From a virus: a stretch of DNA of 64,000 nucleotides. The position numbers were made by a program, and so were the translations under genes. Below, piece after piece: positions 39,455 to 55,985 of this stretch (its first letter is position 1; each line of letters opens with the position of its first letter). The stretch is taken from IMG/VR virus record IMGVR_UViG_3300036770_004723, positions 1-64,000 of that record. The stretch is one strand, 5' to 3'. The notes beneath the pieces are model-generated. The model saw only the letters and a program-made list of their open reading frames with translations, ran no database searches and was not told where the DNA came from.

Positions 39455-41155
39455 ATGTCTAAGCAATACGGTAATCTGGTATTCATGGGTCAAGGCCAAG
39501 TAAAAAACTTCACACCTGAAAAACTGGCGGCAGATCCAGTAGGTGTTGGTTTATGGGAAGGTCGCGTATGGACCAACGAAACTGAAAAATGTATTAAGTT
39601 CTTTTTAGATGGTGAAGTTAAGCAAGTTGCTGAAGGCGGTTCACTGGAAGATTATTTACGTCGTGACGGCACACTGAACATGTTGGCAGACCTGACTTTA
39701 AGTTCAGATGATCAAAGTGCTGCCGCAGACACTACTGCTGTAAGTAAGAAACATGTTGAAACTCGCTTATCTACCAAACAAAATACTGTAACTGGCGCAG
39801 CAACTTCAATCGTTACAGCAGATTTAACTGCTGAACGTGTTGCTGTTTCTGATGCAAGCGGTAAAGTTGCAGTTTCTGCTGTTACTACTACTGAATTGGG
39901 CTATGTTGGCGGTGTTACTTCAGGCATTCAAGCACAGATCGACAGCAAACAAGATGACCTTGGTTATGTACCAGTAAATCGCGCTGGTGATAGCATGACC
40001 GGCCAGCTGGCAATGAACAACGAACGTATCATTGGTGTAGGCGCTCCAGTTAACGCAAACGATGCAATTCGTAAGATCGATCTTGATACTGCAATCGCAA
40101 ACTTAAACTGGCAAGATGACGTATTAGCAATTCAAGTTGATAATACTTTAGTTCCAGAATTAGTTGAAGGTTCTCGTTACATTGTCACTGACGTTGCAAA
40201 TTTAAATGCGGGTTTCGGTGTTATTGCTGATGTAGCAAATAATGATATCGTTGAATATGTCGGCGGTGCTTTCGTTGTTGCATACGATATTAGTGCTGCT
40301 GGTGCGCAAGCTGCTGGTACTTTTACTACCAATATTGCTGACGGTTCATTCTATCGTTACAATGGTTCATGGTCACGTTTCGAAGGTGTTGACAGTATTG
40401 TTGCTGGTACGGGTTTAGTGCGTTCAGGTAACGTTTTCAACGTTAACATGGGTGCCGGTATTTCTGAATTACCTTCAGATGAAATCGGTATTGATGTACG
40501 TGCTAACGGTGGTTTATTTCTTACTGAAGATGGTTCAGTTGCCTCAACTGGTGCAAGCGCACAATTAGCTGTACTGTTACAGTCTACTGGCGGTCTGGAT
40601 ATCGGTGTTGACGGTGGCGTACAAGTTAAATCACAAGGTATCGTCGCAGCAATGTTAGGTGCTGTTGCTGCAAACGGTTTAACTGGTGGTAACGGTGTAG
40701 CTGTTAGTGTTTTAGCTGCTGACGCTTCTTTAACTGTTGATGTGTCTGGCGTTAAATTAAATGAAACACACACTGACGGCATTTATGCCCGTCAAGATGG
40801 TGCAGATTTTACTGGCGCTGTTACTGTACAGGCTCCAACTGCTAATGCAAATCCGGCTACAAAACTGTATGTTGATACAAAAGAAACTGCGTTACAGGAT
40901 GCTATCACAGCAGTAAATGCTCGCGTAACTGACGGTCATTTTGTTTATGATGGTACTGCTGCCGCTGCGTCAACACACACTGTTGCACACGGTATCGGTC
41001 AGAAATATGTTTCTGTAACTGTAGTAGATGAATTCGACAACGTTGTTGGCGTTGATGAAATTACTTATGTTGATGCAAACACTTTAACAGTTTCTGTATT
41101 GCCTGCAAGTAAAATCCGTGTAATCTGTGTTGGTTCGGCTCCAGTAGTAGCATAA
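39455..41155 (+). CDS. Tail-fibre protein, 566 aa, distinct base composition
   Basis: It has recognised fibre features. The N-terminal module YGNLVFMGQGQVKNF is related to that of the next gene. Repeats include LTAERVAVSDASGKVAVSA and KQDDLGYVPVN. The shaft motif DSMTGQLAMNNERIIGVG followed by PVNANDAIRK is widespread in phage fibres. A C-terminal domain STHTVAHGIGQKYVSV matches the W.I.H.LG distal domain family. Codons here use C and G in third position much more than neighbours (CGT, CTG, GGC, GCA/GCT rich in Ala, Val and Asp). High expression or recent acquisition could explain this. GAGGTATAT precedes the ATG. A terminator follows at 41182-41208. Confidence 0.85.
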   Translation: MSKQYGNLVFMGQGQVKNFTPEKLAADPVGVGLWEGRVWTNETEKCIKFFLDGEVKQVAEGGSLEDYLRRDGTLNMLADLTLSSDDQSAAADTTAVSKKHVETRLSTKQNTVTGAATSIVTADLTAERVAVSDASGKVAVSAVTTTELGYVGGVTSGIQAQIDSKQDDLGYVPVNRAGDSMTGQLAMNNERIIGVGAPVNANDAIRKIDLDTAIANLNWQDDVLAIQVDNTLVPELVEGSRYIVTDVANLNAGFGVIADVANNDIVEYVGGAFVVAYDISAAGAQAAGTFTTNIADGSFYRYNGSWSRFEGVDSIVAGTGLVRSGNVFNVNMGAGISELPSDEIGIDVRANGGLFLTEDGSVASTGASAQLAVLLQSTGGLDIGVDGGVQVKSQGIVAAMLGAVAANGLTGGNGVAVSVLAADASLTVDVSGVKLNETHTDGIYARQDGADFTGAVTVQAPTANANPATKLYVDTKETALQDAITAVNARVTDGHFVYDGTAAAASTHTVAHGIGQKYVSVTVVDEFDNVVGVDEITYVDANTLTVSVLPASKIRVICVGSAPVVA

Positions 41156-41181: not shown

Positions 41182-41208
41182 ATGGGGCGTTAATTCGCCC
41201 CATTTTTG
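41182..41208 (+). terminator. Rho-independent terminator after the 566-aa fibre gene
   Basis: ATGGGGCG (41182-41189), a 6-nt loop, CGCCCCAT (41196-41203), then TTTTG. It is a strong GC stem with a T-tract. It would separate the unusual fibre gene from the adhesin array, either fully or as an attenuator. Confidence 0.85.
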
Positions 41209-41858: not shown

Positions 41859-42083
41859 ATGGCGATTCAGCTTACAGTACAATCTCACACACATTTACAG
41901 CAAGTACCTAGCAGTATGTGGGTAATAACGCATAATCTAGGTAGATTGCCTGCAATTGATGTTTATGTTAATCATCAAGGATCTTTGCAAAAAATTCAAC
42001 CAAAGAATATTGTAAAGCAAGATGATAATGTTTCGAAAATCTATTTCAGTCAACCTATGACTGGACAAGCGAGGGCGATCTAA
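41859..42083 (+). CDS. Single WxIxH fibre domain, 74 aa
   Basis: The whole protein is one distal-domain copy: SHTHLQQVPSSMWVITHNLG, then a strand-rich tail ending FSQPMTGQARAI. It matches the domain in the preceding gene (H.H.Q..PS..W.ITHN). It ends in TAATG, overlapping the next start by 1 nt. It could be an independently made knob protein or a leftover of a broken fibre. AAGGAGATCGTAT precedes the ATG. Confidence 0.72.
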   Translation: MAIQLTVQSHTHLQQVPSSMWVITHNLGRLPAIDVYVNHQGSLQKIQPKNIVKQDDNVSKIYFSQPMTGQARAI

Positions 42084-42631
42084 TGTTAATAGATGGCGCA
42101 CAACTATTAGAAGGCAGCACCTTAGAAATATCACCAATTGATTTTGGTACAGAGTTTCCGGTCAGTGCTGATGACGGCAAACGTTTCAAAAAAGAAGGAA
42201 CTGATGCAGGTAACTACGTGTATTCATTGTTTTTAAACAAATGGATAAAAGTAGATAATGTTAGTTTTAATAGCTATGATATAAGTGCAAGCATATTTGA
42301 TAGACCTAGATCTAATGATGTTGTAGTGCGACATATCGCAGCACGTACCTTTTATCTTAAAAAAGATTTAGAAGGTTCTTTAGCTAGTGCAAACTTAGCA
42401 GCAACAGATTTAACTGTGTTCGATGTTTTTGTTAAAAATGAAAATTCTAACACAAAAGTAGCTACATTAAAATTTTTAGCAGGATCTAGTATTGGTGTAT
42501 TTGAAAGCCTAGATACTCAAAATAGTATCATACTAGGTCGAGGCTACGAACTAATAATTGTAGCACCTGAAAATCGTGATGCAACTTTATCCAGTATTGC
42601 AATTACTCTATCAGGATACTTATTCGTCTGA
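42083..42631 (+). CDS. Fibre-tip-like protein, 182 aa
   Basis: The N-terminal quarter (FPVSADDGKRFKKEG, YVYSLFLNKWIKVD) resembles a fibre attachment repeat. The remaining part, with ARTFYLKKDLEGSLASANLA through VAPENRDATLSSIAITLSGYL, has the pattern of distal beta domains at phage fibre ends (TF.I.K......TF..G...G.F.........D.L...AP...D..L..I..TL.G). Possibly a receptor-contacting knob. Coupled to the previous gene by TAATG. Confidence 0.7.
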   Translation: MLIDGAQLLEGSTLEISPIDFGTEFPVSADDGKRFKKEGTDAGNYVYSLFLNKWIKVDNVSFNSYDISASIFDRPRSNDVVVRHIAARTFYLKKDLEGSLASANLAATDLTVFDVFVKNENSNTKVATLKFLAGSSIGVFESLDTQNSIILGRGYELIIVAPENRDATLSSIAITLSGYLFV

Positions 42632-42638
42632 GGTAAAT

Positions 42639-43565
42639 ATGGATCTGATTCAGTGGGACAAGTCGGCACTGTTAAATTTAATGGGAAATACAAATGGTAA
42701 TACTGAATGGTTGTTCTGTTACATGGACACAGACCAACTTGTTCCGCTGATGGAAGAAACCACTTCATTAAATGCCTTTCAGTATTTTGCACAGCATTGT
42801 ATAAGTACCAGAATATTATTGATGCGGGCTATAAATAATTCTATTGTGGATAAATTTGCTAGCATCCTATACAATGACGCTAATAGAATTTTTCACCACA
42901 GAGGAACTTTAGATGTTCCTTCTTCAAATCTTAAACGTATTGTACCTGTTAATCAGTACATAGAAAACATCAACGAACTCAGTTGGTTAAATTCAAATAT
43001 CCCCTTCTACTCTAGCGCTTTAATAAATTCAAGTCAAAGAAGTCAAAACATTTTAATTCCAATGCAGACTAAGTTAGTATTCGAATTCCACGATTTAATT
43101 GAAATAAATTCTATAAACTACTCAAATGCTTTGAGTTCAGTAGCGTCCAACCGACCGGATTTTCTTCAAATAGAATACAAAACAGATTTAGATCAGGATT
43201 GGATATCACTTCCTGAGATTACAGCTAATAACGCAAGCACGTCATTACAAACTTTTTTAATCAATGTATCATGCAAAGCCCTGAGAGTAGGTTCAAGAAA
43301 AACAAGTTTAGGTACTAACTGGTTGTTCGATACAATACAATTTAATACATTAATGGATAAGCATTTTCTAGGTGAAGAAGTTAGGTCTCTTATTATGATA
43401 CCTATTCCGAACAGCGGGCATGTCAATCCATCTATTTGGGGAACCGGTGTAAAAGTATTTGCTTTTGGCCTAAATGAATTAAAGATGAACATTCTTAAAA
43501 CAGATCGTTTTGTAGAATTAGGTGTAATAGCATCTAGATTAAGTTCAAAGGCGGTGATATTATGA
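42639..43565 (+). CDS. Adhesin array, A-type protein A0, 308 aa
   Basis: First and most divergent A-type member. ATG 42639 with GAGGTAAAT is chosen over the upstream in-frame ATG at 42576, which lies inside the previous gene. The middle (about 150-255) looks like an F5/8-type C (discoidin) beta-sandwich: LVFEFHDLIEINSINYSNAL, LQIEYKTDLDQDWISLPEI, KALRVGSRK. The end (RSLIMIPIPNSG...ELKMNILKTDRF) corresponds to the C-terminal block of other A members. It overlaps the B1 gene by 4 nt. Confidence 0.6.
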   Translation: MDLIQWDKSALLNLMGNTNGNTEWLFCYMDTDQLVPLMEETTSLNAFQYFAQHCISTRILLMRAINNSIVDKFASILYNDANRIFHHRGTLDVPSSNLKRIVPVNQYIENINELSWLNSNIPFYSSALINSSQRSQNILIPMQTKLVFEFHDLIEINSINYSNALSSVASNRPDFLQIEYKTDLDQDWISLPEITANNASTSLQTFLINVSCKALRVGSRKTSLGTNWLFDTIQFNTLMDKHFLGEEVRSLIMIPIPNSGHVNPSIWGTGVKVFAFGLNELKMNILKTDRFVELGVIASRLSSKAVIL

Positions 43566-44074
43566 AAATGAATGTTGCTGCATCAAATCTAATGTTTCAA
43601 AGAAATTTATCAAGTCCTGTTGCTTTAAAATATCAAATTATTTTTGTACAAGGCTTTACTCACACTGCCTTAGAGCTAGAGAACAACTTTAATAATGTTG
43701 TTGGAGGCACGTTAACAAACATAAATACTTTAATAACTCAAATTGCAGGCAGAGGCGGAAAAGTAGTAGCTTTTGCTGAATTATTACCTAATACAGATCC
43801 TGTACTTAAAAATAACTTTGTTAATTTACTTGATTTTAATTGGAGTAAATTAAATCCAACTATTATAGCATCAGGTACACCTGACTGGTTTTTAATTTAC
43901 GTAAGAAATTCAAACGTAGCTTATAATGCGGCAGGTCCTTGTGTTTGGTCCGTGTATGGCACTATTACAAATTTTTCAGGTAACGGCGACCTTAAAGTAG
44001 GTAATAGAAATATGCTACTAGGTCAAATGTACAGCATGGGCAATTTTAGATTGAAACGTGAGGAAGTAATATGA
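43562..44074 (+). CDS. Adhesin array, B-type protein B1, 170 aa
   Basis: B-type features: an FAELLP block, IIASGTPDWFLIYV, then VYGTITNFSGNGDLKVGN and the C-terminal NFRLK. In other B copies the same positions read SGTASFFTIFF, SVGIEGSNADLIL and DFDFKL. So this is a small beta-rich structural protein, probably partner of the neighbouring A protein. It overlaps both A0 and C1 by 4 nt (ATGA type), which points to fixed stoichiometry. Confidence 0.68.
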   Translation: MKMNVAASNLMFQRNLSSPVALKYQIIFVQGFTHTALELENNFNNVVGGTLTNINTLITQIAGRGGKVVAFAELLPNTDPVLKNNFVNLLDFNWSKLNPTIIASGTPDWFLIYVRNSNVAYNAAGPCVWSVYGTITNFSGNGDLKVGNRNMLLGQMYSMGNFRLKREEVI

Positions 44075-44460
44075 GTAATAACCTTCTTCATCAGGCTAAT
44101 TTATTCGGCCAAGATTTCGATCAAAGTCTTTTCTTTTTCCGTCCAAAACAATTCACGTTTGATTTAAAATTGGATGATCTTGAAATAGTTAATACATCCA
44201 ATCCATTCTTAAATTTTAACTCTGAACCGATTAAAGTTGATTTTATAGATTCAAAAAATACAATTTTTGAATTCAATACAAACTCTTTGTCGGTGGATAT
44301 TATAAGATCTAAATCTAGTAAGTTTTCTTTTTCAGGTATGGGTATAAATTTAGGTATTTTGACAGCAAACAAAACATTAAATTCGCAGTTCACAAATACA
44401 ATAAATTCAAATATAGTGTTTGTACGTGAATCCTTTTTAAGCATTTCAATTTCAATTTGA
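44071..44460 (+). CDS. Adhesin array, C-type protein C1, 129 aa
   Basis: An unusual small protein rich in Asn, Ser, Phe and Ile (KQFTFDLKLDD, FSFSGMGINLGIL) that looks like repeated beta strands. It ends VFVRESFLSISISI, nearly identical to the end of C2 at 48833-49429. The DNA around the stop (TTTCAATTTCAATTTGAGG) is also nearly the same. No known family. GAGGAAGTAAT precedes ATG 44071 inside B1. Confidence 0.68.
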   Translation: MSNNLLHQANLFGQDFDQSLFFFRPKQFTFDLKLDDLEIVNTSNPFLNFNSEPIKVDFIDSKNTIFEFNTNSLSVDIIRSKSSKFSFSGMGINLGILTANKTLNSQFTNTINSNIVFVRESFLSISISI

Positions 44461-44468
44461 GGTAAAAC

Positions 44469-45467
44469 ATGGAAACATTTGGATTAAATGCCACAATCAC
44501 TGAAGCAATGAAAAATACTATGCCGACTAGAGCATTAGCTTATTTATTTAACAATACTATGCCTGTGGATTTTAATTCACTTGGATTCCCACTGACAGCA
44601 AAAGGTCTTATCGAAAATTGCTCCAATGTACTAGTATTAAATAGTTACTTCGTTAATACAGAAGCCCGTAGTACATATTTTACAAGCTCTGCTTCTTTAA
44701 TTAAATCTGGTGATGTTGTAGCACAGTATCGCGGTGAACCCGTAACTGTACGTGAAGGTGCAAATGTAAGTTCTTCTTTTGCAGATCACGTCGTATGGTA
44801 TCCTAAATCAATTACCTGTAAAAATGACTACCGTGATCATAATACTTTTACTTGTTTTATGTACAAGACAAATGGTGAGTACGGTTTTGACGGCTTAGAT
44901 ACTTTTATTGCACGTACTACAGAAAACGACGAAGCAATTGTTTTTGAGTATGATACGGAACTTAGTGTTAATTGCTTTGGTATCAAGCAAAGCACAACAG
45001 TAGGTCAAGTAGCCAATCAGTTTGTTGTAGAGCGATGGGACGGCAATACGTGGGTAAGTATTGAAACAACGCCCGCCAATCAAACAGGCTATTTAATAAT
45101 TCGTTTTGCTGAAGTAACTGCTTCAAGATTCCGTATTAGGAAAATTGCTACTACAGGCGCTGTGGCTAACATTGATGTGGCGTTTGCTTACTTCGGTAAA
45201 TTTGGTTTTGCTCAAAATGAATTAAGAAAAAATGTAGTAGCGCCTAAATTTGCGATTATTGTACCAGAGCATATTTCAGCAACCACACTGAACAATTTAA
45301 TTACAAAGCAGAATGATATTTACGGAAACAGAAATTCAGATACTGATCATCTAATCATGTGCAGTGCTGGAACACCAGATCAAAATGTCTATATGCGAGT
45401 AAATTTTCCGTCAAACGACGTAAACAGTAAATACAATTTTTATCTGGTAGCAGGGCAATTACTTTAA
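44469..45467 (+). CDS. Adhesin array, A-type protein A1, 332 aa
   Basis: Begins METFGLNA, has YLFNNTMPVDFN, then HVVWYPKSITCKNDYRDHNT, GFDGLDTF, and a discoidin-like domain (about 155-245: EAIVFEYDTELSVNCFGIKQ, ERWDGNTWVSIE, SRFRIRK). The end block is FAIIVPEHIS...IMCSAGT. It aligns along its full length with A5 (52366-53352). Discoidin-type domains bind sugars or lipids, so a surface-binding role is plausible. GAGGTAAAAC precedes the ATG. Confidence 0.75.
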   Translation: METFGLNATITEAMKNTMPTRALAYLFNNTMPVDFNSLGFPLTAKGLIENCSNVLVLNSYFVNTEARSTYFTSSASLIKSGDVVAQYRGEPVTVREGANVSSSFADHVVWYPKSITCKNDYRDHNTFTCFMYKTNGEYGFDGLDTFIARTTENDEAIVFEYDTELSVNCFGIKQSTTVGQVANQFVVERWDGNTWVSIETTPANQTGYLIIRFAEVTASRFRIRKIATTGAVANIDVAFAYFGKFGFAQNELRKNVVAPKFAIIVPEHISATTLNNLITKQNDIYGNRNSDTDHLIMCSAGTPDQNVYMRVNFPSNDVNSKYNFYLVAGQLL

Positions 45468-45478
45468 GGCGATTGTTT

Positions 45479-46597
45479 ATGAAAATGTTAGGACTAAAAA
45501 ACTCGTTAGCTAAAGCCTTTTCTGATACGGTAGTAGGTACTACTTTTGCAGAAGGTCACTATAATTGCACTGTATTTTTGTTTGATGAACCTATACCGAC
45601 GGATTTAAATACATTCAGGTCAGCCTCCGCCGGATATAAAAGTGATTTTAATTATGAATTAGTCAAAGATTGTGTTGGTATGTTTAATGCTAAATTCTAC
45701 TACGATCAGGCTAAAGATAAATTTGCTTTAACAAATGCAACAGGGGCATCTGAAAATCAGTCAAGTAGTTTAAGAAAAAACGATCAATACGCTCCAGAAG
45801 GTATAAGTTGCTTACTTCTACCTTCAGTTAGCCCAACATCAATGGTTACGCCAGTAGCATCAACACTCCCAACAAATACATTATATTACGCGCCATCTGT
45901 GTTGAAACAACTTCCAGCTTCATTAAGTGTTACAGATATACAAGGAACCTCAGATTTTTCTGCGATAACACAGGTAGAGAATTTTGCGCACCCTAGATTA
46001 GGATCGAATAGACCTGTAAAAAATATACTAAATTTAGTATACGGGGACCCAAACGGATTTGGATCTCACCCAAGAATTAGAATAATATCAAAATATAAAC
46101 AAGCTAAAACATTTGATAGAATTTTGATAAAGATTTCATATAGCATTAGGGTAGATGCTTGCACATTACGCATACACGCTAAATCAGGCCAAGGAGCTTT
46201 TAACCTAGTTACTGAATTTAGGTTTGTTCCGACCGAGACAGGTAAATATTTAGAAATAAACTTACCTCCATTTGAAGCAGATACTATTCATTTAAGTGGG
46301 CATTTTTTAGCGGGCGGTTTGACTCAAGGAAGTCCTGGTGTCATAAATTTAAGTGAATTGGTTTTTGGTAGATCAGGACAAACTTCTGAAGTACCGGCGT
46401 TAACCTCTAATTTCGGAATAGTAGCGTTTGGTACAAAAGATTATGGTTTAAGAATGAATGATCCTAACGGAAGATTTGTTCAATCGCATGTACCAATGTT
46501 TTTACTTGAAACTGGATCTGGTATAACAAAGCTAGATACGAATTTGAACGTACCTACAAATTTCCTCCGTCTAAATAAAAATGTAGAATTTGGATAA
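45479..46597 (+). CDS. Adhesin array, A-type protein A2, 372 aa
   Basis: ATG 45479 preceded by AAGGCGATTG is preferred to TTG 45473. Starts MKMLGLKNSLAKAF and has VFLFDEPIPTDLN, the A-type start motif. The middle looks like a beta-sandwich with KYLEINLPPFEADTIHLSG, which corresponds to KYVKINFPRKMVKGISVYSRG in A6. The end block FGIVAFGTKDYGL...MFLLETGSG matches the A pattern. Probably a structural adhesin; partner of B2, which begins 4 nt after its stop. Confidence 0.7.
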   Translation: MKMLGLKNSLAKAFSDTVVGTTFAEGHYNCTVFLFDEPIPTDLNTFRSASAGYKSDFNYELVKDCVGMFNAKFYYDQAKDKFALTNATGASENQSSSLRKNDQYAPEGISCLLLPSVSPTSMVTPVASTLPTNTLYYAPSVLKQLPASLSVTDIQGTSDFSAITQVENFAHPRLGSNRPVKNILNLVYGDPNGFGSHPRIRIISKYKQAKTFDRILIKISYSIRVDACTLRIHAKSGQGAFNLVTEFRFVPTETGKYLEINLPPFEADTIHLSGHFLAGGLTQGSPGVINLSELVFGRSGQTSEVPALTSNFGIVAFGTKDYGLRMNDPNGRFVQSHVPMFLLETGSGITKLDTNLNVPTNFLRLNKNVEFG

Positions 46598-46601
46598 TAA
46601 C

Positions 46602-48269
46602 ATGCTGACAAATACATCTTTCGACTTATGTACATTAGGTCAATTTAGTGCGGCACAACAAACACCTTTTGATAATACTAATGTGGTAATTTTATCAATT
46701 TGGGAAGGAAGTTTGCTGTCCGAAGAAGAAATTCAAAAAATACACAATTCAAATTTTAATATAAGTCCTATATATCATCAATATGACGGATATTACATAA
46801 AAGACGTGAACAGTTATGAAGGCCAGTGGATTAAGAGCACTAATCCTAACGTGGGATTAGTTGGCATGGGTAGGCGTGAATTAGTTCGTTGCGTATTTAA
46901 TAATTTTACGAACAAAGCTTTAGGTAATACAATATACGAGAGAATTTTCCAGTTTTCAAAAGATCAGGGTCAAATAAAAGCTAAAGCGTCTGGAACAGCT
47001 CAAATGTTTAGCCTGTGTATTGTAAATCAAGACATTGATGCTAGTGCAGCAGTAAATGCAAATAATAGAGCAAACTTTTTAATATTCGGTAGCTGTGGTG
47101 ATTTTAACTCAGACGCAGATTTAAAATTGAGTAGTGTGAATATTTTGCAAGATAGTTCTGTCCGTATTGCGGATATGAGATTCGAGTTTGATTTATTTAG
47201 CTCTATCGAGTTAATAGATCCTGTTATTCCTGTGTATGAGTACAGGGAAATAATTCCTTCTATGACAGGTTATTCGAACTCCGTAGCTACAATTACGGCC
47301 AGTGGTGAATACGATCCTAGTACATATCCTGCCTGGAAAGCCTTTCAACGCAACGGGCTGCAAAATTATTACTTAGCTACTCCAAATATGTCAAATGGAA
47401 TACCCTCAGGATTTAACGTAACAAGTTCAGGTAACTATAATAGCAATTATTTACCTTCCCGACTATTCAACTCCGTAGATGCAACTACAGGGCAAGATGG
47501 GTGGTTTAGTCAATATCCTGGATCCGCACCAACAGATTTAAATCCACACTGGGCGCAGATCGAATATCCTGCTCCGGTAAGGATCGATGCGTATGTAATA
47601 CAAAATTCAGCAGATCCTGAGATCGTGAAAGCCTTAAAAGGCGGATTACTTGCTAGTAATGACGGTATAAATTGGGCAACACTTGATACTTGGGAATACA
47701 CAGCAGCTAGTGCGGTTAGTTTAGGATTAAGACCTATTAGGTTAATAAGTTCACCTGCTAAATATAAATTTTATAGACTAGCAATCTATAAAACTAATGA
47801 AGCTACGCATAATGGTGTTTTCTTAAACTATGTTAGTATACCAAGATTATATTTACTTTCTAAAGAAGTTAATGAGTATCAAACTAATCCAAGAATGTTT
47901 ACGATCACAAGTACACTAAATACTGATTCTTGGCTGTCTGAACTTAGGGCGGCATCTGAAGCAAATCCTTATTGGCTTAAGGTTGAATTTGCGGTCGCCA
48001 AAGTTGTTACTGCCTACAGAATATGGAATGGTGATAAACCTCACATGTTGAGTGGCAGTGTACAAGCAAGCAATGATAATCAGAACTGGACAACATTAGA
48101 TAGTATTGACTTGCAGACTGTGCCTACAAATTACACTTGGCGGAATCTAGTAGAGCTAAATAATTCGGTGGCATATAAATACTATAGGCTTAATATCGTC
48201 CGTATCAGTGAATGGAGTGCTGTGTGCGTAGGTGAGTGGGTTCTGTTTGAATCCATACTTGTAGAATAA
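46602..48269 (+). CDS. Adhesin array, B-type protein B2 with two discoidin domains, 555 aa
   Basis: ATG 46602 is used; the TTG at 46590 lies in the previous gene. Residues about 1-205 are a B module (VVILSIWEGSLLSEEEI, SGTAQMFSLCIV, SDADLKLSS, DMRFEF). Two F5/8-type C domains follow. One is at about 280-410 (WFSQYPG, HWAQIEYPAPVRIDAYVIQN, LLASNDGINWATLD, YKFYRLAIYKT). The other is at about 425-550 (YWLKVEFAVAKVVTAYRIWN, VQASNDNQNWTTLD, YKYYRLNIV). A preceding stretch (AWKAFQRNG) suggests remains of a third. Such domains commonly bind glycans, so this is a strong receptor-binding candidate. Confidence 0.82.
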   Translation: MLTNTSFDLCTLGQFSAAQQTPFDNTNVVILSIWEGSLLSEEEIQKIHNSNFNISPIYHQYDGYYIKDVNSYEGQWIKSTNPNVGLVGMGRRELVRCVFNNFTNKALGNTIYERIFQFSKDQGQIKAKASGTAQMFSLCIVNQDIDASAAVNANNRANFLIFGSCGDFNSDADLKLSSVNILQDSSVRIADMRFEFDLFSSIELIDPVIPVYEYREIIPSMTGYSNSVATITASGEYDPSTYPAWKAFQRNGLQNYYLATPNMSNGIPSGFNVTSSGNYNSNYLPSRLFNSVDATTGQDGWFSQYPGSAPTDLNPHWAQIEYPAPVRIDAYVIQNSADPEIVKALKGGLLASNDGINWATLDTWEYTAASAVSLGLRPIRLISSPAKYKFYRLAIYKTNEATHNGVFLNYVSIPRLYLLSKEVNEYQTNPRMFTITSTLNTDSWLSELRAASEANPYWLKVEFAVAKVVTAYRIWNGDKPHMLSGSVQASNDNQNWTTLDSIDLQTVPTNYTWRNLVELNNSVAYKYYRLNIVRISEWSAVCVGEWVLFESILVE

Positions 48270-48293
48270 ACCGTTAATTAGTTGAGGTAAATA

Positions 48294-48833
48294 ATGAAAT
48301 TTAATAAAGGTGCTATGTTAGCACATACATTCGCATACCACAGAACAGATCTTGCGAATACAGCTAGTGTTACTGTTAGCTTTTTTACAGGGCCTGTGGA
48401 TTTAACAGCGACTGAACGAAATGTTTTCAACAGTGCCGTTGTAACCGCAGTAGCTAATGGTTTAATTAGTCATAGTGCTGCACGTACAGAACTCTTGAAG
48501 ACACGTACTGAATTAGGTCAATTATTTTTACCTAATTTTACTCAACGTCGGATCGGCGCAACACCTGATGAACGCATTTGGATGTTCACTCAACGTACTG
48601 AAGAAATGACGGGCTTAGCCGCAGGCACACCAACATTTGCACTAATCAGTTTGCATGGTGGAGGCGCTGCATATCAGGCAGGTAACATTTGTCGAACTAT
48701 GTTTGCTTGTTCTGTTGGTGCAGTAGGTGAGCCAAACGTTGAATTCGAATACAATGGAAATATTGTTGTAGGTCAACGTTATAAAATAAATGATTTCCGT
48801 TTCAAGATAAATAACTTACTTGGAGAAATCTAA
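48294..48833 (+). CDS. Adhesin array, B-type protein B3, 179 aa
   Basis: B-type motifs: VSFFTGPVDLTATE, LFLPNFTQRR, ERIWMFTQRTEEM, AGTPTFALISL, CSVGAVGEPNVEFEY and KINDFRFKI. Compared with neighbours, third codon positions are somewhat richer in G and C. It overlaps C2 by 1 nt (TAATG). GAGGTAAATA precedes ATG 48294. Probably a structural subunit alternating with A proteins. Confidence 0.7.
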   Translation: MKFNKGAMLAHTFAYHRTDLANTASVTVSFFTGPVDLTATERNVFNSAVVTAVANGLISHSAARTELLKTRTELGQLFLPNFTQRRIGATPDERIWMFTQRTEEMTGLAAGTPTFALISLHGGGAAYQAGNICRTMFACSVGAVGEPNVEFEYNGNIVVGQRYKINDFRFKINNLLGEI

Positions 48834-49429
48834 TGCCAAGTGTTCACATAGCTTCGTATTATGCGAATAGGTTTGATCCTGATACATTGTTTCCAGAACT
48901 TGCTATGTTCAAGAGTTCTGATGTTTTTTACGGTACAAATTTAACAGCATTAAATATAGAGGGCTTAGAGTTTACTCCTAAATTTGAAGGCACTTCAGTA
49001 AATGCACTGTATGTTAAAGATGTTGCAACAGATCTTTTAAGTAATTTTATACCTGAAGGCAATCCATTAATATCTAATCAAGTGGTAAATACTTTATCAG
49101 TTGTTAGTTTGATGGCAACATTAGGTTTGACATACTTAACTAATCCTTTCGCTGAGTTTGATATGGGAAATCAAATGAAAGCGGATCAACAAATTTACGC
49201 AACATACTCAATAGACTACAATTTAAAAAATATTGTCAATAAGTTAGATTACATGACCGATCTAGCTTTTGAATCTAAATCAGAAAATCAAAATCAATTT
49301 GTTCATGCAGGATACAAATTTTTTCTGATCAATACAATCGAACCAATGGAATCTTCTTTTATATCCAATTCTATCCCTAGTCCGGTTTTCATTAGAGAAT
49401 CTGTTTTAAGTATTTCAATTTCAATTTGA
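48833..49429 (+). CDS. Adhesin array, C-type protein C2, 198 aa
   Basis: C-type member 69 residues longer than C1. The N-terminal part (IASYYANRFDPDTLFPEL) is followed by Asn/Ser/Phe-rich strands. It ends PVFIRESVLSISISI, matching C1, and the DNA across the stop and the following GAGGTAAA is conserved as well. In both cases the next gene is A-type. The conserved tail may be an assembly or docking peptide. Confidence 0.7.
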   Translation: MPSVHIASYYANRFDPDTLFPELAMFKSSDVFYGTNLTALNIEGLEFTPKFEGTSVNALYVKDVATDLLSNFIPEGNPLISNQVVNTLSVVSLMATLGLTYLTNPFAEFDMGNQMKADQQIYATYSIDYNLKNIVNKLDYMTDLAFESKSENQNQFVHAGYKFFLINTIEPMESSFISNSIPSPVFIRESVLSISISI

Positions 49430-49437
49430 GGTAAAGT

Positions 49438-50382
49438 ATGTTTATATTAGGTGAGAACGCACACGCATCGAGTATTTTAGCGCAAGCTGGAACTCAATGG
49501 AATTTGTTTTTATTTACAGGTACTGCCCCTACCTCAGTAGATAATGTTCCATTCAACATCAGTAATATGCAAGAAATTTATGCAAATGCTGTTGCAGGTT
49601 TACGTTTGTTAGGTGTCAACAGCACAATGTACGGACAAGAATTAATTGCATTTGAAAACGTTGCACAACTGTTTGCCTTAAAAATGCACGGCGCACGTAC
49701 AACCAACGGCATTGCAGGTATTCAATTATTACCTCAAAATATTACAAGTAACATTGCAGGTCTTGAAAAACCCGCAGGCTACGTAAACGGATTAGAGAAC
49801 AATCCTTTAGCTAATGCAACAGCTTCAACGCACTTACTGGCCAATAACTGGATCGAGTACGATTTTGGTACAGATGTGAGTGTTAATCGTGTACTATTCG
49901 GTAATAACTCTAATACTGCACGTAATGCTACTAGTATGGCAATTGAATATTTTGATGGTAATGCTTGGCAGATAGCTGCCAATAACATTGCGATTAAAAC
50001 ATATGTGGCCGCAGGGATTGAAAGCAATTTCGCACCAATAACAGCACAACGTTGGAGAATTCGTTTCCTGAATGATACAGGTACAGTAGTCTCTAATACA
50101 TTAATCTACAACTTTTTGCGTTTCTTTGGTGCAGAAGTTCCTGTAGATGTTATGTCAAAAGAAAATTTAGATTTTACTTGGGCTATGTTGGTTCCTGCTC
50201 AACCTACTGTAGCATCCATATATGAAAATTTGTTTGCTCAACGTGTTCCTGCTTTTATTGTCAGTGCTGGAGGACCTGTTGATGGAGCAACCGCACTATT
50301 AAATAGAAAACGTGCAACTATTAACGACATTATTAGTTGTGTAAGTTTAAAAGTTAAAACAGCTGTAACTGACGAGGTTTAA
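49438..50382 (+). CDS. Adhesin array, A-type protein A3, 314 aa
   Basis: A-type start motif LFLFTGTAPTSVD. The discoidin-like middle (about 120-230) has WIEYDFGTDVSVNRVLFGNN, IEYFDGNAWQIA and AQRWRIRFLND. The end block WAMLVPAQPT...AFIVSAGGPVDGATALLN...DIISCVSLK aligns with A4. GAGGTAAAGT precedes the ATG. The B4 gene begins 1 nt after its stop. Probable surface-binding structural protein. Confidence 0.73.
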   Translation: MFILGENAHASSILAQAGTQWNLFLFTGTAPTSVDNVPFNISNMQEIYANAVAGLRLLGVNSTMYGQELIAFENVAQLFALKMHGARTTNGIAGIQLLPQNITSNIAGLEKPAGYVNGLENNPLANATASTHLLANNWIEYDFGTDVSVNRVLFGNNSNTARNATSMAIEYFDGNAWQIAANNIAIKTYVAAGIESNFAPITAQRWRIRFLNDTGTVVSNTLIYNFLRFFGAEVPVDVMSKENLDFTWAMLVPAQPTVASIYENLFAQRVPAFIVSAGGPVDGATALLNRKRATINDIISCVSLKVKTAVTDEV

Positions 50383-50383
50383 T

Positions 50384-50923
50384 ATGATATTAGCTACTGA
50401 TGCAATGATTCCACTGATGAATCAGGCTCCAATTATTGGCGTAACTCACCGCAAACTATTAACTATGTATGATGGGAGTATGGTGACTAAAGCAGACATA
50501 GAAGCTGCTTTATACTCAACAGTAAGCGGTAGCGGTATTATGAATGGTACTACACGAGGGCAGTATCGCCAAGATCTAATTCATAATCTTATACTGGCAA
50601 AAGGTGGGATACTACGAGGTTTCATTAATTACGCAGCTGCTTTAACTCCGCAAATGAACGGTGCCAAACGTTTACGTTTTCCTTTGAGTGAACGTAATGA
50701 AGAACTTACTAAGTCAGCTGTAGGTAATGTTACGTTTTTCACTATGGCAATTGTAGGGAATAATGTGGCTAATCCAACCACTAACACAGCGGTTTATTGG
50801 TTAGGTGTCGGCACTGTTGGTGTTCCAGGTAGTGGCGCAGATATGGAACTATTCGGTGCTGCAATTGACAACACTCGCGCAGTTCGTGCTAATGATTTAA
50901 TATTTGATTTTAGTGGAGTTTAA
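50384..50923 (+). CDS. Adhesin array, B-type protein B4, 179 aa
   Basis: B pattern: LRFPLSERNEELTKSAVGNVTFFTMAIV, then VYWLGVGTVGVPGSGADMEL and the end DLIFDF. The N-terminal half (MIPLMNQAPIIG) differs from other B copies. It is tightly packed between A3 and A4 with 1-nt gaps, and GACGAGGTTTAAT lies before its ATG. Probably made in fixed ratio with A3. Confidence 0.7.
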   Translation: MILATDAMIPLMNQAPIIGVTHRKLLTMYDGSMVTKADIEAALYSTVSGSGIMNGTTRGQYRQDLIHNLILAKGGILRGFINYAAALTPQMNGAKRLRFPLSERNEELTKSAVGNVTFFTMAIVGNNVANPTTNTAVYWLGVGTVGVPGSGADMELFGAAIDNTRAVRANDLIFDFSGV

Positions 50924-50924
50924 T

Positions 50925-51818
50925 ATGTTGATCCACAACGGCGCTAACGCAATGCAAAGTATACAAGATTATTGCGGCCCTAATTGGCAAATATTTTTTA
51001 TGGATTCTCATGTATTTGGTGAATCTGTACCAACAAAACTAAGTGATTTAGTTTTTGATCCTTCTGATGTAGATCATTTATTGACAAGATCTCGGGCAGT
51101 AGTTCAAGCAACTTCTAACATTGTGAATGGGGTACTTTCATTTACCCATAGTTCATCACTTGTTAGTTGCAGACAAAACGGCTTGCCTGTTCAAAATACA
51201 ATGCAAGATTCTATACCTCTTTATAGTGTGGCACCTACTAATGTAAAAGCAGGTGGAGGTAGAACCCAATTAACTTTAGCTGAAAGATTGGCCTTACTAA
51301 ATGATGATAATGTCGGTACATCTTTTCCACTAAATGCTTTACCTCAAACTTTAGTTTTTGATTGTATTCCAAACAATATTAAATTTGTTGAAATTGAATT
51401 CGGTACTCAAATTCCAATCTTTGATATTGTTACTGAATCCGTTGCTTCCGGTGCTATGCAACATACAAAAACTTTAGTAGGCAGCTCAAGATACAGAATA
51501 GATAATGTTCGAGATGATATTAAACAAGTAACATTGTCTTTCGGTCAATCACAAACAATATTCGAAGTGCGTGCAATTAGATTTTTCACTGACCAAATTA
51601 TTGCGGATTCTGTTGCCGAATTTGATTACGCTATCTTACGTCCAGTATCTTGGAATACTGCTATTACAGGGATTAATGCTCCGGCTCCTTACCTGTTGAT
51701 TAGTTGTGGAGGACCTATGAGTAATGCGGAACTACGAACCAACCGTCAAACTTATAAACCTAATGATATTGTTTCATTAATGCACTTACAATTAAAACCT
51801 CAAATTCTGGAGATCTAA
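50925..51818 (+). CDS. Adhesin array, A-type protein A4, 297 aa
   Basis: ATG 50925 is chosen, one nt after the B4 stop and 21 nt after the in-frame TTG at 50904. The start has NWQIFFMDSHVF followed by VPTKLSDLVF. The middle is beta-rich (KFVEIEFGTQIPIFDIVTES, QVTLSFGQSQTIFEVRAIRFF). The end block is YAILRPVSW...APYLLISCGGPMSNAELRTN...DIVSLMHLQLK, closely matching A3. Coupled to B5 with a 1-nt gap. Confidence 0.72.
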   Translation: MLIHNGANAMQSIQDYCGPNWQIFFMDSHVFGESVPTKLSDLVFDPSDVDHLLTRSRAVVQATSNIVNGVLSFTHSSSLVSCRQNGLPVQNTMQDSIPLYSVAPTNVKAGGGRTQLTLAERLALLNDDNVGTSFPLNALPQTLVFDCIPNNIKFVEIEFGTQIPIFDIVTESVASGAMQHTKTLVGSSRYRIDNVRDDIKQVTLSFGQSQTIFEVRAIRFFTDQIIADSVAEFDYAILRPVSWNTAITGINAPAPYLLISCGGPMSNAELRTNRQTYKPNDIVSLMHLQLKPQILEI

Positions 51819-51819
51819 T

Positions 51820-52314
51820 ATGATTGCACTATCTCCAACAATGAAACAGTTGTTGTCAGCCAAATACGAACAAAGTAATTCAAGTAAAAAAGTAATGTGG
51901 GTTTTTAGTGGCAATATTCCAACTAAAAATCAAATTACAGCTTTAGTTCAATCTGATGGAACTGTAAGCTCAAATGCGTTGAAAGCTTTAGGTACATTAA
52001 GACTTAGCGTAGCTTATCCTGCAACTGTATTGCCTAGAAAAGTAAATGCAGATTTACTTCGGTGGGAACTAGCTCAAAGAAACGAAGCTTTTACAACTCA
52101 CTCACCTGGAGTAGCTAATTGGTTTGTATTCATGTATGTGGCTACAAATATTAATGAACCTGCTTACAGTACTGATGCTAAAATATACCAAGCCTTTATA
52201 GGGGCAGTCGGTGACATAGGTACGCCAAATGTAGATATGGAATTGTTAGGTGGTCAAGTTGAATCCGATAAGATCTATAAGACTACAGATTTCGAGATCA
52301 AAACATTAGCCTAA
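51820..52314 (+). CDS. Adhesin array, B-type protein B5, 164 aa
   Basis: B pattern: KKVMWVFSGNIPTKNQI, LRWELAQRNEAF, GVANWFVFMYV, AFIGAVGDIGTPNVDMELLG and the end DFEIKTLA. It closes the second sub-block of the array and is followed by the hairpin at 52319-52344. GAGATCTAAT precedes the ATG. Confidence 0.7.
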   Translation: MIALSPTMKQLLSAKYEQSNSSKKVMWVFSGNIPTKNQITALVQSDGTVSSNALKALGTLRLSVAYPATVLPRKVNADLLRWELAQRNEAFTTHSPGVANWFVFMYVATNINEPAYSTDAKIYQAFIGAVGDIGTPNVDMELLGGQVESDKIYKTTDFEIKTLA

Positions 52315-52318
52315 ATAC

Positions 52319-52344
52319 TTAGGTGGGTAAGTTTACCCACCTAA
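52319..52344 (+). terminator. Stem-loop between array sub-blocks
   Basis: TTAGGTGGGTAA and TTACCCACCTAA are perfect reverse complements separated by GT, giving a 12-bp stem whose innermost pairs probably open. The following CTCAATTTG is only partly T-rich, so termination may be incomplete. It lies between B5 and A5, the only larger gap in the array. Confidence 0.6.
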
Positions 52345-52365
52345 CTCAATTTGACGGGTAGTTAT

Positions 52366-53352
52366 ATGGAAACATTTGGATTAAATGCTAGCATTGTGGC
52401 TGGTATACAAAACATATATGGCAGCAGCGGCGTAGTTTATCTATTTGACTCTGACATGCCTGAAAATTTTAACCAGATAGATACTAAGTTTCTTATTGAA
52501 AATAGTAGACTCATTAGTTCAGTAAACTTGAGTGCAAAACCAAATACTTCTTATCTATCAATTACATCTAAAGGTAACTATGTAAAAAATGCAGATGTTA
52601 TAGCAAAATATAAAGGTGAACCTGCTATATATTTCGATGGTACAAAGAATTTTACAGCGTACCCAGATCATTTAGTTTATTACCCTAAATCTATTACCTG
52701 CAAAAATGATGATAGAGATCATCAAACTTTATTAAACTTCATGTACAAACAAGTTGATGATTATGGATACACTGGATTAGATACAAATATACTAAGGCAC
52801 GTAGAGGACGGTGAATTTATTGTTTTTGAATACGATCAAACAGTAGAGGTCAATTGCTTTGGTGTTAAACAAGATTCTGCTAACGGCACTCAGTTTATAA
52901 AATTAGATTTAGAGTATTGGGATCAAAATACATGGATACCCATTACAAGCACACCAAATGAAATAAATGGATACTATATTATAAAATTCAATGCAGTTAC
53001 CTCAAATAAATTCAGATTGCGTAAATCAATTTCAGCAGGAACTGCCACTGTTAAGATCAAGGTTGCTTTTGCATATTTTGGTAAAATTGATTACATATTG
53101 TCCGACATTCGTATAAATATCTCTGAAATGAAATGGGGTATGTTAATGCCAGATCCTTTAAGTTCTTACCTAAATAATGCTATCCAAAAACAAAATGATG
53201 TTTATAGTCAGATTAACCAAGATACAAAACATTACATATTGTGCAGTGCAGGTACAATGGATGCAAATAAAGAATTAAAGTTGTCTACAAAAAATTTGAA
53301 TTCTGGTTCAGATAGATACGGACAGACTTTAATTTTAGGTCAAATAGGTTAA
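52366..53352 (+). CDS. Adhesin array, A-type protein A5, 328 aa (close paralogue of A1)
   Basis: ATG 52366 is used (TTG at 52351 is unlikely). It begins METFGLNA exactly like A1 and shares YLFDSDMPENFN, HLVYYPKSITCKNDDRDHQT, GLDTN, IVFEYDQTVEVNCFGVKQ, NTWIPI, FRLRK, VAFAYFGK and ILCSAGT. With A6 and B6 it repeats the A1-A2-B2 order, so the triad was probably duplicated as one unit. Discoidin-like middle, possible glycan binding. Confidence 0.77.
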   Translation: METFGLNASIVAGIQNIYGSSGVVYLFDSDMPENFNQIDTKFLIENSRLISSVNLSAKPNTSYLSITSKGNYVKNADVIAKYKGEPAIYFDGTKNFTAYPDHLVYYPKSITCKNDDRDHQTLLNFMYKQVDDYGYTGLDTNILRHVEDGEFIVFEYDQTVEVNCFGVKQDSANGTQFIKLDLEYWDQNTWIPITSTPNEINGYYIIKFNAVTSNKFRLRKSISAGTATVKIKVAFAYFGKIDYILSDIRINISEMKWGMLMPDPLSSYLNNAIQKQNDVYSQINQDTKHYILCSAGTMDANKELKLSTKNLNSGSDRYGQTLILGQIG

Positions 53353-53364
53353 TAAGGTGAGCGT

Positions 53365-54954
53365 ATGAAACATATAGGTATAATGGAAAGTGGTCTAAAT
53401 TCCATGATTCAAAATAAGTCTACAGCGGTAGGTCTAGTATCTAGTGCTATGGTGGAAAACTGTGCACTTTATTTGTTTAAAGGTAAACAGCCTGACTTTA
53501 ACGATCTCGATCTTAAAATTCAAGCATCTAATTCAGAAGGTTTGAAATCTTTTTTGATTTCCCAGTCAGATGTTAGAATACCCTTCAAACTTAAAACATC
53601 TAAATTTGGAAATCAAATAAGACTGAGTTTAGATAATGCTTCTCACGACATAAGCACAAACAGAGATAGAGTATCAAAGTTTCCTGTAGATTTAAGTGCC
53701 GAATCTTACCAAGATATTATCCCATTAATGAATTCTAATAGTCAGAACGGTTTTAACATAACTGTTTCCAGTATGGCAGTATCTAACCCAGGATTCAAGG
53801 CGTTCCAAAAAACAACCGAACCTTTTCCATCTTTTGGCTGGCTAAGTGCTTTTGTTTCTACCAATTATAATGTTTTTTCTGTACCTGAATGGATTCAAGT
53901 AGAGTTCCCCTCCGCCGAAGTAGTAAATGCTTTTTCTATTAGAAACGGATCAGAATCAAATATAGTACGAGGTAGATTAATAGCAAGCAACAATTTAACG
54001 GATTGGACTGATCTAAAAGATTTTTCTCCCAGCAAAACAGGTTACGCGATATCCCCTAAATTTATTTTTGAAAATAATACAGCATTTAAATACTATAGGC
54101 TAAATATATTCGAAACATCTGAAAACAGTAGAGTAGGTGTAGGTGAATTTCAATTATTCAAGGCAATAGGTAAAGTAAATGGTATAATGTATGGAATCAA
54201 TAACTATAGAATTCAATTTAATGTCCCTACATCAACACCTATCTTAAGTTTGCCTGTCATAGTGCCATCTGCGTATGAAAACCTACAAACATTTTACGAA
54301 AAATCTGTTCTTTCCGGTGCAGTTCGTATAGATCAATATAACAGATTTAGTAATATGGGTCTTATGGCAGGAGAACTGGGAGATTTACGTTACGCACAAT
54401 CGGGTGAGCAGTATGAAAATAGAGGAACTGCTTTAGCCTTAAGAACGGATCAAGTAGTAGATGCCAATTGTATAGTAATGTACATAATGCACACCCACTG
54501 GCCAAGAGCTACAGCACCACTTAGATTTTTCATACACGATGAACAAGACGTAATTCATGAAATTCCTTTAGCGGATTATGAAGTTAATAAATACGTGAAA
54601 ATTAATTTCCCGCGTAAGATGGTTAAAGGTATATCCGTATATTCAAGAGGCGTTGAATCAAGACAAACAATATCAGGCATGAGATTCTGTTATTTTAATG
54701 TACTTACCTTAGGCTTGGACGTAGCGGATTCTTCTGTATTTCAAAATGAAGTAGATTACACAGCAGCTTTATTGGTTATTGACGAAGATTCTACAACTAG
54801 ATCTTCCATACATGTCCCTCCAATGTTAGTTATGTCAGTAGGAAATTCTGAAAGCAACGCCGAAGTTATATTAGATAATGTTTTCGGTAAAATAGTAAAT
54901 TCTTCAGCAGTATTGTCCTCTAAGATTTTAGATTTACCTTTGCTAGGAAGTTAA
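53365..54954 (+). CDS. Adhesin array, A-type protein A6 with discoidin domain, 529 aa
   Basis: Start motif LYLFKGKQPDFN. A full discoidin domain lies at about 130-268 (PGFKAFQ, PEWIQVEFPSAEVVNAFSIRN, LIASNNLTDWTDLKD, FKYYRLNIF, GVGEFQLF), much like those in B2. A later part matches A2 (KYVKINFPRKMVKG). The end has PPMLVMSVGNSESNAEVILDN. The extra domain relative to A2 shows that discoidin units move between A and B proteins. AAGGTGAGCGT precedes the ATG. Confidence 0.78.
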   Translation: MKHIGIMESGLNSMIQNKSTAVGLVSSAMVENCALYLFKGKQPDFNDLDLKIQASNSEGLKSFLISQSDVRIPFKLKTSKFGNQIRLSLDNASHDISTNRDRVSKFPVDLSAESYQDIIPLMNSNSQNGFNITVSSMAVSNPGFKAFQKTTEPFPSFGWLSAFVSTNYNVFSVPEWIQVEFPSAEVVNAFSIRNGSESNIVRGRLIASNNLTDWTDLKDFSPSKTGYAISPKFIFENNTAFKYYRLNIFETSENSRVGVGEFQLFKAIGKVNGIMYGINNYRIQFNVPTSTPILSLPVIVPSAYENLQTFYEKSVLSGAVRIDQYNRFSNMGLMAGELGDLRYAQSGEQYENRGTALALRTDQVVDANCIVMYIMHTHWPRATAPLRFFIHDEQDVIHEIPLADYEVNKYVKINFPRKMVKGISVYSRGVESRQTISGMRFCYFNVLTLGLDVADSSVFQNEVDYTAALLVIDEDSTTRSSIHVPPMLVMSVGNSESNAEVILDNVFGKIVNSSAVLSSKILDLPLLGS

Positions 54955-54956
54955 TT

Positions 54957-55985
54957 ATGAAAATTAATCACAGTTTTGCTCACAATCTTTTTAGTCCTCT
55001 GTGCTCAAAATACAAACCTAGTACGTATGGGACGTGCCTAGTAATTTCATTATGGTCAGGCACAAGTCTAACAAACAATGAACTTATTAACATTGAAAAT
55101 AATAGATCTAGCTTTAATATACCTGGTAATTTTATGGGGTTTGCTACAGAACACAGTAATAGAAAAGAATTAGCTAGATTAACTTTACCTAGTTTTTCAG
55201 ATAGATTTACTGTTAACGAAGAGGATTTTAAGTTAGCTTTTACAAAAAGAATAGAAGATTTTATTTTTGTTTCTTCTGGCACTGCTTCTTTTTTCACAAT
55301 CTTTTTTGCCCGTGACAACTTTACTGCGTACAACGGTGATATAGCTAATAACAGCGGATCTTGTTTAATATCAGGTAGTGTAGGTATTGAAGGCAGCAAC
55401 GCAGATTTGATTTTAAGTCAATTAAATATTATTGATTCTAATATAGTAATCAAGGACTTCGATTTCAAATTAATTTCTACGACTTTACAAAGATTTTGGC
55501 TATCTGCCGATCTACCCGAAGGGAATATTAGATTACCGTTATATAATATTTTAGATCAGACCACAACAGGCTGGAAAAGCTTTGCAAGATCAGGAGCAGG
55601 TAAAACAGTGTCAGATGTTGAGTGGTTAAGTTTATGGAATAACCTAACAACAGGCATCAAAATAATGGGTGACGATGGCAGGGTAGCTTTCTTATCTGTA
55701 GATAAATTAAAACCTTCAGGTGTCGATGATTTAACTAAAACAATAAAAACGCCAGCGAATTACGACTGGACAAATAATAGTGCAAGTAATTATTTTTACC
55801 ATCATGAAATCGTAGGGAATAATGCAGCTGGAGGAGATTATTCTATTTTATGTTTGACTTCAAATGCTAATGGAGGTATATGGAACGAAAGTAATAGGTT
55901 CGCTTTCATGAACTACACCAACCCAAACAATGGCATAACTTACGCAGGTAAGCCTAATTGGCCGTTTACTCTTTACATTCACTAA
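54957..55985 (+). CDS. Adhesin array, B-type protein B6 with C-terminal tip domain, 342 aa
   Basis: Residues 1-180 are a B module closest to B2 (LVISLWSGTSLTNNEL, NRKELARLTLPSF, SGTASFFTIFF, SVGIEGSNADLIL, DFDFKLIS). The C-terminal 160 residues form a different domain with WLSADLPEGNIRLPLYN, WKSFARSG and repeated Trp and Asn/Gly-rich turns (SNANGGIWNESNRFAF), which would suit ligand contact. Last gene of the array; the lysis genes begin 9 nt later. Confidence 0.73.
   Translation: MKINHSFAHNLFSPLCSKYKPSTYGTCLVISLWSGTSLTNNELINIENNRSSFNIPGNFMGFATEHSNRKELARLTLPSFSDRFTVNEEDFKLAFTKRIEDFIFVSSGTASFFTIFFARDNFTAYNGDIANNSGSCLISGSVGIEGSNADLILSQLNIIDSNIVIKDFDFKLISTTLQRFWLSADLPEGNIRLPLYNILDQTTTGWKSFARSGAGKTVSDVEWLSLWNNLTTGIKIMGDDGRVAFLSVDKLKPSGVDDLTKTIKTPANYDWTNNSASNYFYHHEIVGNNAAGGDYSILCLTSNANGGIWNESNRFAFMNYTNPNNGITYAGKPNWPFTLYIH

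Follow-up and report, generated by a model that had tools for sequence, protein, structure and literature searches.

Fifteen genes packed between positions 42639 and 55985 of the DNA analysed here probably encode an expanded, heterogeneous version of the tail garland of phages 7-7-1 and Milano. The whole stretch, referred to as the window, covers bases 1-64000 of the 286,584-bp virus record IMGVR_UViG_3300036770_004723, which belongs to a jumbo phage of ~286.6 kb. The evidence comes from a family of short proteins (B) that, by profile comparison and predicted fold, is homologous to a garland protein of known place in the virion, from a family of longer proteins (A) that shares the B core and appears to carry an additional lectin-like domain, and from related phages in which the array mostly keeps its place while its members change much faster than the surrounding tail genes.

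Layout and families of the array

The fifteen genes, g01 to g15, are all open and lie on the + strand as follows.

g01: 42639-43565, + strand; A-type, 308 amino acids (A model E 4e-13)
g02: 43562-44074, + strand; B-type, 170 amino acids (B model E 1e-31)
g03: 44071-44460, + strand; C-type by position and ends, 129 amino acids, family weakly supported (C model E 0.023, no better than decoys)
g04: 44469-45467, + strand; A-type, 332 amino acids (A model E 2e-60)
g05: 45473-46597, + strand; A-type, 374 amino acids, slot replaced between near-identical relatives (A model E 5e-8)
g06: 46590-48269, + strand; B-type unit at the N-terminus, then two discoidin (F5/8 C) domains, 559 amino acids, start possibly the ATG at 46602 (B model E 3e-28, residues 20-201)
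g07: 48294-48833, + strand; B-type, 179 amino acids (B model E 2e-30; phrog_17152 E 1e-6)
g08: 48833-49429, + strand; C-type, 198 amino acids (C model E 2e-8)
g09: 49438-50382, + strand; A-type with discoidin-like insert, 314 amino acids, modelled (A model E 8e-69)
g10: 50384-50923, + strand; B-type, 179 amino acids (B model E 1e-45)
g11: 50904-51818, + strand; A-type, start probably the ATG at 50922 (A model E 6e-25)
g12: 51820-52314, + strand; B-type, 164 amino acids, modelled (B model E 2e-41)
g13: 52351-53352, + strand; A-type, paralogue of g04, start probably the ATG at 52366 (A model E 1.5e-40)
g14: 53365-54954, + strand; A-type with discoidin domain, 529 amino acids (A model E 8e-8)
g15: 54957-55985, + strand; B-type N-terminal unit and C-terminal domain, 342 amino acids (B model E 1e-24, residues 12-172)

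A reading made earlier from the sequence alone had described a packed, co-directional fifteen-gene array at this place, which is real, with overlaps or gaps of 1-12 nucleotides, which is true of most junctions but not of the 24 nucleotides before g07 or the ~51 nucleotides before the likely start of g13. Plain BLASTP connects only some of the members, and hidden Markov models (HMMs, the models of the list above) were therefore built from relatives, excluding every window sequence, and the window proteins were searched together with reversed decoys. One mis-cut row, a fragment of an A gene, was left out of one of the alignments used in the analysis. The B family comprises six units (g02, the g06 N-terminus, g07, g10, g12 and the g15 N-terminus) with expectation values (E) of 1e-45 to 1e-24 against a best decoy of 0.05, and the A family seven proteins (g01, g04, g05, g09, g11, g13 and g14) with E 8e-69 to 8e-8 against a best decoy of 0.0095. 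The C family is firm for g08 only; the value for g03 compares with a best C decoy of 0.00085. The last 14 residues of g03 and g08 are 86% identical and their N-termini are alike; a single C family made of the two is unconvincing, as g03 does not rise above the decoys. Among the three alternating families of the sequence-only reading, A and B are thus significant and C is secure in one gene, whereas strict alternation did not survive: the order from g01 to g15 is A B C A A B B C A B A B A A B, which makes the alternation approximate only. A B gene directly follows five of the seven A genes, and g04-g05-g06 and g13-g14-g15 have the look of one A-A-B block that was duplicated, g04 and g13 being 42% identical (BLASTP E 1e-92).

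Garland homology and the lectin-like insertion

The fold predicted for a B protein and the B family profile both point to homology with the tail garland protein of phage 7-7-1. An AlphaFold model of g12 (mean predicted local distance difference test score, pLDDT, of 80, from 24 aligned sequences) gave a single confident Foldseek match in the PDB, 9rkv_A, with probability 1.00, E 1.1e-3 and a template modelling score (TM-score) of 0.61 on the target; the next fold matches had probabilities <=0.1. The match is to chain A of entry 9RKV, 'Agrobacterium phage 7-7-1 tail fibers'. When the B profile was searched against 31 phage 7-7-1 proteins, 7-7-1_000105 (E 3.5e-6) and 7-7-1_000103 (E 0.011) ranked first, the best decoy reaching 0.2, and hhalign aligned B with the 7-7-1 garland at a probability of 89% (E 2.4e-6). 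A search with 7-7-1_000105 found 9rkv_A at E 5e-11 and 44nx_B ('structural protein') at E 0.0036, the latter being also the sole pick of the B profile among PDB sequences, at an insignificant E of 0.068. We take 7-7-1_000103 to be probably gp014, since its length of 141 amino acids is that of 9rkv_A and it comes immediately after the gene for the tail fibre. In 7-7-1, the tail fibre gene 7-7-1_000102 is followed by 103, 104 and 105, the paralogues 103 and 105 being both annotated 'structural protein', so that diverged paralogues stand side by side behind a tail fibre gene, as in the array. The profile of u4, the gene directly upstream of the array, matches residues 479-553 of the 7-7-1 tail fibre (E 4e-4; best decoy 0.1), and because of this likeness to its C-terminal part the gene order (u1-u4, then array) agrees too. 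The gp014 garland of 7-7-1 runs around the most distal baseplate, where tail fibres of both kinds, short and long, touch it (PMC12796354). In Milano, gp125 and gp127, two proteins of ~30% identity, build the garland, and the presence of a thread is suspected (PMC10811340). According to the Milano paper, the baseplate connectors T4 gp8 and A511 gp105 have the same fold and dimer as garland proteins (PMC10811340); the connectors sit near the fibre bases whereas the garland sits at the fibre tips, and neither connector was among the listed fold matches of g12.

Profile-profile comparison shows that A and B share a core. The C-terminal parts of the two profiles (A positions 253-322, B positions 112-178) align at E 8e-6 and the N-termini at E 0.0075, colinear with the C-terminal match, the controls giving at best 0.28 for 60 column-permuted profiles and 0.46 for a reversed profile. 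A is therefore best read, from these alignments, as a B-type bead with a lectin-like domain inserted; for the A members that have no discoidin match, the lectin insert is assigned by family membership only. The sequence-only reading had called A discoidin-like; among the A proteins, Pfam gave only weaker signals, for g09 (discoidin-type, E 1.5e-5, just under the cut-off) and g14 (E 2e-4, under the cut-off). The clearest discoidin domains are found instead behind the B-type N-terminus of g06, where two stretches match F5_F8_type_C (E 3e-11; 43.9 bits against a cut-off of 28.2), and one of them is 42% identical to the discoidin part of g14. The Pfam search returned no PF00754 or PF22633 discoidin match in g01, g04, g05, g11 or g13. 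The model of g09 (overall pLDDT 60) matches CBM32 structures, the best being 7d29 (E 5.8e-6), and in this low-confidence model the middle domain of A thus matches a CBM32/discoidin-type jelly-roll fold. Discoidin domains have been reported previously in jumbo phages (PMC7824862); here, the F5/8 type C/CBM32 domains (PF00754, PF22633) would be inserted in or attached to a garland-type bead and not to an enzyme or a eukaryotic receptor. The Pfam search gave no match for g15 either, its C-terminal domain (residues 176-342) included; this domain is possibly a further adhesin head. Given the garland homology of B and the CBM32/discoidin-matching domain of A, the earlier suggestion that diverged adhesin-type paralogues decorate one structure is probably right.

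Synteny and variation among relatives

The layout had been thought to be without precedent, but at least 10 deposited isolates carry a syntenic array, nearly all of whose genes are annotated as hypothetical. The carriers include the Erwinia phages Alexandra, Yoloswag, Y3 and several SNUABM isolates, the Dickeya phages AD1 and JA11/13/29/33, and Yersinia phage fHe-Yen9-02, and in these phages the array lies between homologues of u1 (mostly of u1-u4) and a lipoprotein/membrane-protein gene, the homology being significant. The arrays of Alexandravirus, Sasquatchvirus (Y3), Yoloswagvirus, Salmondvirus (JA11) and fHe-Yen9-02 represent the same system, with the same place, the same alternation of ~1.0 and ~0.5 kb genes and homologous B proteins, but their members are deeply diverged, and the window has the extra genes g13 and g15 and two discoidin domains behind the g06 B unit. 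By profile, B copies number six in the window and in G001, five in G004, L059 and L060, seven in NCTB, four in Alexandra and Y3, and three in JA13 and fHe-Yen9-02, with no match in PaBG, Lu11, CBB or RaK2. In PaBG (L004), the region 223239-230760 has no B genes and holds instead large adhesin-annotated genes and a fibrinogen-domain protein. In G004 (L053, 72000-91900) and NCTB (141-154 kb), the array is far from the u1 tail gene, and the block therefore seems able to move as a unit. A DNA search of the array against phage records, a tblastn search with g06 and a single-protein gpJ search of viral contigs gave no matches, and a literature search found no paper describing the array.

The array is a local hotspot of variation, and the other tail genes evolve far more slowly. 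For example, nucleotide identity between the phages L059 and L060 is 98.8% on one side of it and 97.6% on the other, whereas in the g05 slot blastn cannot align the A genes, whose products share 27% identity; identity is 77% for the next B, 47% for a small gene further along, which has an extra neighbour in one of the phages, and 97-99.7% for the remaining array proteins. A small gene of another type, 'D', lies between B and C (L060 13334-13969, L059 13261-14262) and varies in sequence and copy number between these near-identical phages. Across 19 pairs of the Alexandra group, chosen at >80% identity in the adjacent tail genes and not independent of one another, mean identity is 85% in these tail genes and 55% in the array, which is the less identical of the two in 18 pairs, the remaining pair being identical. 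The comparison of isolates that the sequence-only reading had proposed thus shows that members have been gained, lost and replaced among closely related phages. On a finer scale, JA11 and JA13 have the same tail fibres but only JA11 plaques on D. dianthicola (PMC6143709), and 116 of the 136 amino-acid differences in their 35-kb tail region fall within the array (3.75% vs 0.25% elsewhere). Because the nucleotide changes are mostly silent (486 nucleotide vs 116 amino-acid changes), we do not claim positive selection. A genome scan found several differences outside the tail module as well, which rules out the array as the sole divergent site of the two phages. The substitution reported between JA11 and JA33 in a discoidin protein (Ala to Thr) matches A174T in the array gene gp073.

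Two further elements of the array and two landmarks of its upstream side are as follows.

55-nucleotide direct repeat, copy 1: 44428-44482, + strand; C gene end, junction and A gene start, 82% identical to 49397-49451
55-nucleotide direct repeat, copy 2: 49397-49451, + strand; C gene end, junction and A gene start
u1: 39455-41155, + strand; conserved structural protein of the tail/virion and landmark for the 5' flank of the locus, 36-52% identical in the jumbo phages of the group
u4: 42083-42631, + strand; syntenic gene directly upstream of the array, with a domain like the C-terminus of the 7-7-1 tail fibre and orthologues in related phages

The repeat at the C-A junction is a possible recombination seam for cassette exchange. 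The u1 alignment was usable and that of u4 too variable for use. Baseplate and tail-fibre genes lie 5' of the array, and small membrane-protein genes that resemble a lysis region lie 3' of it. A promoter and terminator scan found overall no excess over shuffled sequences; a strong, terminator-like hairpin of 8 pairs stands at 41182-41203, between u1 and u2, and the + strand within the array has none so strong. Elsewhere in the tail region, two proteins (24378-25883, collagen-like, and 31388-34420) have C-terminal ends that look Hint/intein-type, and their NCTB counterparts carry the annotation 'intein domain'. The tail-module protein encoded at 36934-37884 has a signal-peptide-like start and is possibly of a substrate-binding type; genes annotated as 'ABC transporter' occur in the tail module of many relatives.

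The garland model and its alternatives

In the garland model, which we favour, the A proteins would be beads with a B-type core and a discoidin/CBM32-like lectin domain between their N- and C-terminal halves, g06 would carry two lectin-type domains behind its bead instead of an insertion, and the C proteins would perhaps be connectors. A mixed garland of this kind would display several lectin specificities at the tail tip, allowing multivalent binding of surface glycans, and the duplication, loss and replacement of members as cassettes would shift specificity while the main fibres stay constant. The analysis itself establishes the families, the core common to A and B, the homology of B to a garland protein of known place, the CBM32-like fold, the synteny and the local hypervariability, whereas presence of the products in the virion, assembly into one mixed garland, binding of glycans and an effect on host range are inferred. 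The array resembles the garlands of 7-7-1 (gp014, PDB 9RKV) and Milano (gp125, gp127) in its bead domain, which is homologous by fold and profile; the known garlands differ in having one or two bead types against six B and seven A here, in having no reported lectin insertion, and in belonging to another phage lineage.

Several points weigh against this model. A chain of ~13 bead types is an extrapolation from the one or two of 7-7-1 and Milano, and the A profile alone found no match among the 7-7-1 garland proteins. The Pfam discoidin signal is significant in three of the fifteen proteins and passes the curated cut-off in g06 alone, and the model of g09 is poor outside the lectin domain (pLDDT 60). 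The related phages PaBG and Lu11 have no B match, which means that the wider group can do without the array, and because JA11 and JA13 also differ beyond the tail module, their host-range difference cannot be assigned to the array. A literature search found no virion proteomics for any array protein; the PaBG paper numbers its genes in a way of its own, and its proteomics table could not be matched to the array site.

Among the alternatives, the best survivor, which we nonetheless regard as unlikely, is that the A, B and C proteins are subunits of the hair-like appendages that line the tail in the hairy Myoviridae. Its attraction is that Y3 is a hairy phage and that, in the published account, the hair-forming proteins have no known identity (PMC6143709); hairs go unmentioned in the published description of PaBG, and this phage has no B homologue, also as this alternative would have it. 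In the other hairy lineage, however, CBB and its relative RaK2 have no B homologue, and hairs can therefore exist without B, which is present in Y3 and JA13 and absent from PaBG, hairy CBB and RaK2 alike. The homologue of known place sits at the fibre tips and not on the sheath, and the tail appendages of JA11, JA29 and AD1 were called unclear in the original paper.

Somewhat less likely again is that each A-B (or A-B-C) set of neighbours forms a separate adhesin or receptor-binding complex with no common garland. The B genes placed right after five of the seven A genes, the recurrence of A-B neighbours in relatives, and the joint change, to unequal degree, of the variable A (27% identity) and the following B (77%) between L059 and L060 would all fit such complexes. 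The pairing is not strict, however, since A-A and B-B neighbours occur and B copy number varies among relatives, and the known homologue forms one ring. As A and B share a core, A could also pair with itself; and since A resembles a B unit into which a domain was inserted, the earlier claim of two separate families whose members pair as A-B adhesins is not supported as stated. It is very improbable that the products act outside the virion, as soluble lectins freed at lysis or as intracellular proteins with an incidental tail-gene neighbourhood: no virion mass spectrometry was found in the literature for any member, and small membrane-protein genes and a lipoprotein gene, annotated near the lysis region of relatives, follow the array, but the 7-7-1 homologues of B are annotated as structural proteins, one of them visible in the virion structure, most relatives have the array within their block of tail genes, and no obvious secretion signals were noticed, although no formal signal test was made.

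Returning to the garland model, garland proteins and phage-borne discoidin domains are each known, whereas a large, lectin-bearing, hypervariable garland array is undescribed in the literature searched. The tail fibres and tailspikes of jumbo phages, including the branched phiKp24 type, likewise equip a single virion with many receptor-binding proteins, by which recognition is widened or tuned; unlike fibres, the array proteins are predicted to be short beta-sandwiches, and no sequence similarity to fibres or depolymerases was seen. A bolder and more tentative proposal is that this jumbo-phage lineage has a combinatorial receptor-binding collar, in which about a dozen interchangeable garland beads, several with lectin inserts, would be swapped as cassettes by recombination, setting or broadening host range independently of the tail fibres and maybe also explaining the tail appendages. 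From a biological point of view, the garland homology gives an identity to a block of ~10-16 genes, annotated 'hypothetical', in dozens of jumbo phage isolates that infect plant-associated bacteria, and makes the array proteins candidates for tail appendages of unknown protein make-up. It also points to a second possible determinant of host range besides the tail fibres, which bears on the host-range puzzle of JA11 and JA13, and suggests a simple way in which adhesion may diversify, by putting lectins into a polymerising bead and keeping many versions of it.

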